A stretch of 48,304 nt of DNA from a bacterium (GTDB lineage: Bacteria; Joyebacterota; Joyebacteria; Joyebacterales; Joyebacteraceae): positions 1 through 48,304 of the forward strand of contig JALGVU010000008.1 in the NCBI GenBank assembly GCA_025774545.1. The letters are read 5' to 3'. Shown here in pieces: positions 27,007-30,811 of the stretch. Position 1 is the first letter of the stretch; each line of letters begins with the position of its first letter. The translations under genes were made by a program, and so were the position numbers. The notes below the pieces were generated by a model, which had not been told where the DNA came from, did no database searches, and saw only the letters and a list, made by a program, of their open reading frames with translations.

Positions 27007-27255
27007 GGTCAAGTGGGAGGGGCGCGGCACGGCGCGCTCCGGGCGCTGGTCGGCCGACCGCCGCGAGGGGTCCGAGGAGGGCGGCGCGAGGCGTGAGGCA
27101 CAAGGCAAGCGTGCGCGAGGCGCGTGGCAAACGGCCCGAGTCGCGAGGCCCCGGGAGGGCGACGCTCGCGAATCGCGCGGGACAACGGAACTTGTGGGAT
27201 AGTACGGTGCGGTAGGAAAAGTGCAGGCTGGCGCAGCCGGAAAGGAGACGTGACC
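27007..27255 (+). other. Intergenic region before the DUF1028 gene
   Basis: This 249-base gap is G+C-rich and contains several loosely repeated GCGAGGC words between about 27085 and 27150. One, CGCGAGGCGCGTG, also occurs just before the RRM gene near 31435. A weak -10-like GATAGT at 27198-27203 lacks a clear -35. No gene or RNA was recognised. Confidence 0.35.
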
Positions 27256-28287
27256 ATGATCCGTGTGGGATTCTGGCCCCGTGTTTGCATTGGCCTTTGG
27301 GCGGGAGGAGTTCAGGGGGTTCTCCTGTCGTGCGTTCTGGTGCTCGCCGCGACCGGCGGCTGGGCGCCTGCGGCGCTCGCGAGTGAACCCGTCGCCACGT
27401 TCTCCATCGTTGGATTCGATCCGGAGACGAGCGATCTCGGCGTGGCCGTCCAGTCCAAGTTCTTCGCGGTCGGCTCGGTCGTGCCGTGGGCGCGCGCCGG
27501 TGTCGGCGCGATCGCGAGCCAGGCGTACGGAAACACGACCTTCGGGCCGCGCGGCCTCGAGCTTCTGGCGGAGGGGCTGGCGGTCGATGACGTCCTCGCG
27601 AACCTCCTGTCGGATGACGATGACCGGGAACAGCGTCAGGTCGGAATCGTGGACGCGGCCGGTCGCTCGGCGTCCTACACGGGCGAAGACTGCATGGCCT
27701 GGGCGGGGCATCGGACGGGAGCGAGCTTCGCGGCTCAGGGGAACATCCTGGTGAGCGAGGCGACCGTCGAGGCGATGGCGGACGCGTTCCAGGCGACCGA
27801 GGGTGTTCTGGGCGAGCGGCTGATGCGCGCGCTCGAGGCCGGCCAGGCCGCGGGCGGCGACTCGAGAGGAGTCCAGTCGGCGGCCATCCTCGTCGTCCGC
27901 GATCGCGGCGGCTACGGAGGCTACAACGATCGCTACTGCGATCTCCGCGTTGACGATCACGAGGATCCGATCGGGGAGCTGCGACGGATCTTCAACCTGT
28001 GGAAGGAACACGCGCTGATCCTCGAGGGGTACCGGTTGTGCGATGAGGAGCAGTGGGAGAAGGCCTTCGAGGTCGGGAAGCGGAGCGTCGAGCTCTCTCC
28101 CAACGAGGGCGAGCCCCACTACCACCTCGCATGCTACTACTCGAGGGCCGGCAGGCGCGTTGAGGCACTCAGGGAGCTCAGGGCCGCGGTCGAAACGGAC
28201 GCCGCCCTCGCTCCTCGGGCGAAGAACGATCCGGACTTCGAGCCACTCTACGATGACCCGGTGTTCCGAGGGATCACCAGGGAGTAG
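27256..28287 (+). CDS. Secreted DUF1028 protein with C-terminal TPR-like region
   Basis: ATG 27256 follows AAAGGAGA. The 343-residue product has a signal peptide (about residues 1-38, ending ALASEP), then the DUF1028 domain: TFSIVGFDPETSDLGVAVQS, VGAIASQAYGNTTFGPRG and SFAAQGNILVS. The fold is of the Ntn-hydrolase type and many members are fused to other domains. The C-terminal part contains helix pairs (EQWEKAFEVGKRSVELSPNE, YYSRAGRRVEALRELRAAVE) consistent with tetratricopeptide repeats. Its chemical role is unknown; location is probably periplasmic. Confidence 0.85.
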   Translation: MIRVGFWPRVCIGLWAGGVQGVLLSCVLVLAATGGWAPAALASEPVATFSIVGFDPETSDLGVAVQSKFFAVGSVVPWARAGVGAIASQAYGNTTFGPRGLELLAEGLAVDDVLANLLSDDDDREQRQVGIVDAAGRSASYTGEDCMAWAGHRTGASFAAQGNILVSEATVEAMADAFQATEGVLGERLMRALEAGQAAGGDSRGVQSAAILVVRDRGGYGGYNDRYCDLRVDDHEDPIGELRRIFNLWKEHALILEGYRLCDEEQWEKAFEVGKRSVELSPNEGEPHYHLACYYSRAGRRVEALRELRAAVETDAALAPRAKNDPDFEPLYDDPVFRGITRE

Positions 28288-28320: not shown

Positions 28321-30811
28321 ATGACCGACGAGGCGAAGACCGCGCCGGAGCTCGTGGAGGAGCTCAGGTGAGGGCGAGGAGCGCTTCCGCAGCCTCGTCG
28401 AGGGGTCCCCGGACATCGTGTGGACGCTCTCGACCGTCCGGGGGACGCTTTACGTGTCGTCCCAGGTCCGGGCGATTCTCGGCTACACCCCGGAGTACCT
28501 CCATCGGCATCCGCACCTGTGGGCCGACTCGATCCACCCCGGGGACCGAGACTGCGTCCGAGATGCCGTCGCCAGGTTCGATGAGCGCGGCAGCCTCGAC
28601 GTCGAGTACCGCATCCGCGACAGCCACGGCGAATGGCGGGTGCTCCACGATCGTTCGATCGGGCGGGAGGTGAGCGGCGAGGAGACCCTCATCCGCGGGA
28701 TCTCGGCCGACATCACCGAGCACCGACAGGCGGAGGAGGCCCTTCGGGAGTCCGAGAACCTCTATCGCGCGACGATCGACGCGCTCGCCGACATGGTCCA
28801 CGTGGTCGACCCCGACCTCACCATCACTCTCATGAACGAGGCCTTCAGGAAGGCGATGGAGGACATCGATCTCGATCCGAACGTGATCGGGGTGAACCTC
28901 TTGCGTGCGCTGCCGTTCCTGCCCGAGGGGACTCGCGAGGCATACCGGCGCGTCGTCGCGACCGGCGAGAGCTTCGTCGCGAACGAGGAGATCCGCTTCG
29001 GGACGAGGACGATCTGCACGGAGACCCGCAAGATCCCGATTCTCGAACGGGGCGAGGTTGTCCGCGTGGTCACGGTCGTGCGCGACGTGTCGGAGCATCG
29101 CCAGGCCGAGGAGATCCAGTCGGTGCTCTTCCAGATCTCCCAGGCCGCCAGCGACTCCGCGGATCTCGGCGAGTTCCTCACCGTGATCCACCGCGAGCTC
29201 GGGAGACTGATCGACACGACCAACTTCTACGTCGCCCTCTACAGTGACGAGACGAGCATGTACTCGTTCCCGTATCACGTCGACCAGTACGACTGCGACG
29301 AGATCGGTCAGGTCGCGCTCAAGGACAGCCTCACGGACTACGTCAGGAGAACGGGCGAGGCGCTGATGGTCGATCCGCAGGAGCACGGTGACCTGATCGA
29401 CCGGGGCGAGGTGATCCTGATCGGCGCGCAGTCGACGATCTGGCTCGGCGTGCCGCTCAAGGCCGCGGGGAAGGTCATCGGCGTGGTCGCCGTCCAGAGC
29501 TACGACGACGTGGCGCCGTACACCGCGGAGGACCGCGAGCTCCTCGCGTTCGTCTCCGAGAACATCGCGGTCGCCATCGAGCGCAAGTGGGCGGAGGAGG
29601 ATCGCCACGGTCTTGAGGCGCAGATCCAGCAGGCGCAGAAGCTCGAGAGCCTCGGTGTGCTCGCGGGCGGCATCGCGCACGACTTCAACAACCTTCTCAC
29701 CGGCATTCTGGGGAACTCCGATCTGGCGCTCACGCACGTCGCGCCGGAGTCGCCGGTGACGAAGCACATCAAACAGATCAAGACGACGGCCGAGAGAGCG
29801 GCCGACCTTTCACGGCAGATGCTGGCCTACTCGGGCCGCGGCAGCTTCGTGATCGAGCAGATCGACCTCAGCGATCTCGTCAACGAGATGGGGCATCTGC
29901 TCGAGGTGTCGATATCGAAAAAGGCGGTCATCCGCTACGAGGTGGCGGCCGAGGCGGCGCTGATGGTCGGCGACGTCACGCAGATCCGCCAGGTGGTCAT
30001 GAACCTGATCACGAACGCGTCAGACGCGATGGGCGACGACGAGGGTGTGATCACCCTCGCGACAGGAACGGTCGAATGCGACCGCGCCAACCTGGCCGAC
30101 GCGTACGTCGACGATCAGCTGGCCGACGGGGTCTACGTCTACCTCGAGGTCGCCGACACCGGGTGCGGGATGGACAACGAAACCAGGCGGCGGATCTTCG
30201 ACCCCTTCTTCACCACGAAGTTCACCGGGCGCGGCCTCGGGCTCGCGTCGGTCATCGGGATCATCCGAGGCCATCGGGGCGCCGTCGTGGTCGACAGCAA
30301 GCCTGGGAAGGGCACGAGGTTCCGTGTTCTCTTCCCGACGGACACGTCGCCGTGCGTCGAGATCACGGCAAGGCCGACCGCGACTCCCGAGTCCGAAGCG
30401 ACGGGGACGGTCCTGCTCGTCGACGACGAGGAGACGATCCGGGACGTTGGGACACTCATGCTCGAGATGGCGGGATTCAGCGTGGTCACGGCTGAGGACG
30501 GAGTGGCCGCGGTCGACTTCTACCGGGACCACGCCGACGAGATCGCGTGCGTCCTTCTCGACCTCACGATGCCTCGCATGGGAGGGGAGGAGACCTTCCG
30601 CGAGCTCCGTCAGATCCGAGAGGACGTCCGCGTGGTCATCTCGAGCGGCTACAGCGGGAGCGAGATCAACGATCGGTTCGTCGGCCAGGGGATCGCTGGA
30701 TTCGTCCAGAAACCCTACATGTCCAAGGAACTCATCGACGAGGTACGAGCCGCCGTCGACGGGCCGGCACCCCCGGGAGGCATCCATGGGGGAGCGTCGA
30801 GCGTCTCGTGA
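28321..30811 (+). CDS. Hybrid PAS-PAS-GAF sensor histidine kinase with receiver, frameshifted near its start
   Basis: ATG 28321 (after GGGGAA) reads MTDEAKTAPELVEELR, then TGA at 28369. The next frame, with no usual start codon before GTG 28418, continues ERFRSLVEGSPDIVW, a standard PAS opening; skipping the T at 28369 joins them perfectly. From 28418 on come two PAS domains (roughly residues 1-105 and 106-230), a GAF domain (about 235-395), the phospho-acceptor His421 in GGIAHDFNNLLTGIL, the ATPase boxes VMNLITNASDA, ADTGCGMD and GRGLGLASV, and a receiver with Asp715 in VLLDLTMPRMGG. Signal and target are unknown. The frameshift may be mutation, sequencing error or programmed. Confidence 0.88.

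Follow-up and report, generated by a model that had tools for sequence, protein, structure and literature searches.

A hybrid histidine kinase gene whose start is probably put out of frame by a lineage-specific indel, at a site that partly resembles the prfB frameshift signal

Results

In one bacterial genome, the start of a hybrid histidine kinase gene has probably been put out of frame by a lineage-specific indel. In the window, which is the whole stretch of 48,304 nucleotides that was analysed, the ATG at 28321 opens 16 codons (the ATG and 15 more, encoding MTDEAKTAPELVEELR), which are closed by the TGA at 28369–28371, and the 813-codon kinase frame is the +1 frame relative to this ATG (Table 1). 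The open stretch of the kinase frame extends from 28325 to 30808, directly after a TGA at 28322–28324, and has no ATG, GTG or TTG upstream of the GTG at 28418. The coordinates and the frame layout of the original prediction, with GTG 28418 as the first usual start codon of the +1 frame, are borne out by the sequence. At the break, GGAGGAG is followed by CTC (28363–28365), AGG (28366–28368) and the TGA, and the 16-base string of this site has a single occurrence in the genome.

Table 1. Features at and around the break in the kinase gene (coordinates in the window)
Feature	Position	Strand	Remarks
DUF1028 gene, upstream; conserved neighbour of the kinase gene in relatives	27124..28287	+	
0-frame start of the kinase gene, MTDEAKTAPELVEELR*	28321..28371	+	Homologous to ACCATGACCGACGA in G003 and G013
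SD-like GGAGGAG within Val-Glu-Glu codons; incidental	28356..28362	+	GAGGAG in 48/53 Glu-Glu pairs of the window genes
AGG TGA, frame lost here	28366..28371	+	One surplus base compared with the orthologous EALRQSEERYR linker
Remaining gene, intact frame with stop	28370..30811	+	Pfam; 66–68% identity to G009, G003 and G013
GTG, first usual start of the kinase reading frame; may serve as a weak internal start; not ancestral	28418..28420	+	

The 813 residues encoded by 28370–30811 have Pfam matches above the cut-off in the order PAS-PAS-GAF-HisKA-HATPase_c-receiver, and with the PAS/GAF sensor, HisKA, HATPase_c and receiver domains all matched, the gene is a predicted hybrid histidine kinase. Its identity to the orthologues (Table 1) lies near the middle of the values for the neighbouring syntenic genes and is typical of them. 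The remainder of the kinase gene is undamaged, which argues that the break is recent (or confined to the assembly).

For the comparison with orthologues, syntenic copies were taken from the family, in which the kinase follows the same DUF1028 gene; the genomes searched include no conspecific genome and no other member of the genus, and a scan of genome contigs returned distant kinases only. The orthologues of the relatives G003 and G013, which start with ACCATGACCGACGA, have the same 14 bases as the window, and each runs in one frame, without a TGA, from the shared ATG via a coiled-coil linker to the kinase, reaching the motif EAL(R/Q)QSEERYR(R/V)LVEGLPDIVW. In the window, EELR is followed by one surplus base and then by EGEERFRSLVEGSPDIVW, and across the break the protein matches those of G003 and G013 residue for residue, without gaps. 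By the original prediction, intact homologues that lack the SD-like sequence and the TGA would count against recoding; the intact orthologues of G003 and G013 contain neither the TGA nor a frame change. The kinase frame of a further relative, G009, is also open across the linker, and this linker also contains GGAGGAG but no stop.

The linker is also shorter in the window. Here the motif lies 49 nt from the ATG, against 192 nt in G003 and 180 nt in G013. The differences of 143 and 131 nt are both 2 mod 3, so that one deletion of 3n+2 bases would account at once for the reduced length and for the loss of frame. An in-frame deletion combined with a one-base insertion would have an equal outcome and, since the length of the linker varies among the relatives, the shortening and the extra base could have arisen independently. 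The DNA alignment of the linker region is poor and does not separate one event from two.

The stretch between the break and GTG 28418 is conserved at the protein level. When codons 28370–28417 are compared with those of G009, the differences fall in seven or eight codons and are mostly synonymous or in two linker residues (five synonymous and three nonsynonymous differences when GTG 28418 is counted). This pattern indicates that, up to recent times, the stretch was read by ribosomes in the kinase frame, and hence that GTG 28418 is not the ancestral start.

The start codons of the relatives show variation of their own. In G009 (locus L091, 1730–2091 of the reverse complement), the kinase frame has no ATG, GTG or TTG between the DUF1028 stop and an ATG within the first PAS domain, and the usual ATG position appears to read CCG; this start appears to be lost, unusual or an error. 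In G010 (locus L094), an ACG is aligned with the ATG of the sister genomes (GGAATGGGC), and a TTG behind GAGGAG is present further upstream than the aligned start.

The genome's own prfB gene (locus L107, G000:C1, 20798–21826) has a genuine programmed +1 site, TATCTTTGAC, reading ...GAGAAC TAT CTT TGA C. The CTT TGA C is kept in the prfB genes of all nine family relatives checked (10 of 10 genomes when the own gene is included), and in G003, G013, G004, G010 and G014 the site reads GAGGAG-TAT-CTT-TGA-C. This is in agreement with a survey of prfB, in which an SD-like sequence is found three nucleotides before CTTT, followed by TGA and C (PMC12421855). The kinase site is similar in having a short 0-frame ORF, an in-frame TGA and a +1 continuation, and its SD-like sequence is also three nucleotides upstream of the last sense codon, at the same distance from the stop as in prfB, including the prfB of the same family. 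It differs in that AGG T replaces the slippery CTTT of all ten family genes, TGAG replaces the weak stop context TGAC that is found in 10 of 10, the site is not conserved in the orthologues of G003 and G013 (the G009 frame being open across the linker), and no connection between the kinase and termination at UGA is evident. The prfB signal proper is thus present in this lineage and differs from the kinase site, and of the geometry that had been likened to prfB only the SD distance and the TGA stand; the likeness does not extend to the slip codon, to the nucleotide that follows the stop or to conservation.

The SD-like sequence itself is explained by the codons in which it lies. In the window, the exact GGAGGAG is found at the prfB distance before 2 of 1088 TGA trinucleotides, and an SD-like 5-mer of any kind close to that position before 60 of 1088; at about 3.6% of the in-frame coding positions there is an SD-like 5-mer at this spacing. 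Glu-Glu pairs in the genes of the window are mostly encoded by GAGGAG (Table 1), so that GGAGGAG at the kinase site is a by-product. An SD-like sequence at the prfB spacing is uncommon, though not surprising in a coiled-coil linker that is rich in Glu.

Several other readings of the site were considered and rejected. A fusion in which the DUF1028 frame runs on into that of the kinase is excluded because the TGA at 28322–28324 interrupts the latter. Restart at the GTG at 28368, which overlaps the TGA as GTGA and is well placed behind GGAGGAG, would translate an ORF unrelated to the kinase (28368–28673, in the third frame, 101 residues), which has no sign of being a gene. A rare-codon pause at AGG is rejected as well, as AGG accounts for 121 of 706 Arg codons and is not rare.

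Elsewhere in the window, 8920–9201 matches only residues 166–259 of a gene of 268–270 residues in G003 and G009, which suggests an N-terminally truncated remnant.

Discussion

The orthologues are intact, the break is present in one genome only and the product is otherwise collinear, and a lineage-specific indel is the probable cause. The simplest event would be the loss, by deletion, of 3n+2 bases from the N-terminal linker, which is rich in Glu and changes fast; this would shorten the linker and shift the frame together. Ribosomes starting from ATG 28321 would then halt at TGA 28369, so that the full kinase would not be produced; at most, weak initiation at GTG 28418 might yield a form with a slight N-terminal truncation. 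The frameshift is probably a lesion of an ordinary kind: in a large study of frame transitions, isolated singleton frameshifts were attributed to indels of recent origin or to errors of sequencing (PMC3711429). The kinase gene resembles this singleton class in being a conserved gene that is broken in one genome while its relatives are intact, and in lacking a conserved shift signal, and differs from it in having a chance SD-like sequence at the prfB distance. The leading explanation of the original prediction, a base insertion or a sequencing error, is thus of the kind that the intact orthologues and the collinear product support.

It is possible, though less likely, that the gene of the organism is intact and that the break exists only in the consensus, as the result of a base-calling or assembly error. 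The assembly is a draft of 512 contigs, the downstream gene is intact with a normal rate of divergence, and BLAST-supported singletons are in many cases errors of sequencing (PMC3711429). However, such errors are not common in this assembly, since a survey that covered about 160 kb of the genome's comparable coding sequence, and that is blind to breaks in the initial few dozen codons of genes, found at most two other candidate frame changes, both doubtful (one resembles a mis-extended reference ORF and the other is a weak match). Moreover, no homopolymer longer than three is present at the break, and a single miscalled base does not account for the roughly 130–140 nt that the linker lacks in comparison with the closest intact orthologues. 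A real lesion is moderately favoured over an assembly error, and we infer that the lesion is present in the organism rather than in the assembly alone and that the event was a deletion.

A functional kinase that begins at GTG 28418 or at another unusual start, with ATG 28321 as a leftover, is improbable. This GTG is in frame, with GAGGGG 12 nt upstream, and the lack of a usual start before the first PAS domain in G009 and of an ATG at the aligned start in G010 is consistent with such a start; it also suggests that the N-terminus of the kinase may tolerate damage. However, the SD spacing is long, translation from this codon would lose part of the PAS_8 match (from residue 4 onwards), and the protein encoded by 28370–28417 is conserved across the relatives and hence part of the product.

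Programmed +1 recoding at AGG TGA, as in prfB, is very improbable, even though the site has the SD distance and the TGA of prfB, a +1 shift would yield a product that agrees with the orthologous protein, and the genuine prfB site shows that the ribosomes of this organism are capable of a +1 shift. Re-pairing of AGG on GGT gives poor P-site pairing, and the site lacks a CTTT run, has G and not C after the TGA, and is absent from all orthologues compared, whereas the prfB genes of the family keep CTT TGA C throughout. The Glu codons account for the SD-like sequence, and a stimulatory RNA structure is rejected because the fold is unremarkable (z = −1.1). Very improbable, too, is a compensated lesion, in which the internal SD-like sequence and the TGA would form a new, species-specific +1 site that gives a low level of kinase despite the indel.

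If such a compensated lesion were true, the output of the kinase would depend on RF2 activity, and if recoding were true, a prfB-like signal would operate in a signalling gene, of which we know no description. With the lineage-specific indel as the preferred explanation, the site is a caution for the reading of GC-rich genomes, in which GAGGAG, encoding Glu-Glu, mimics a Shine-Dalgarno sequence, such that a chance frameshift in a linker can look like prfB.
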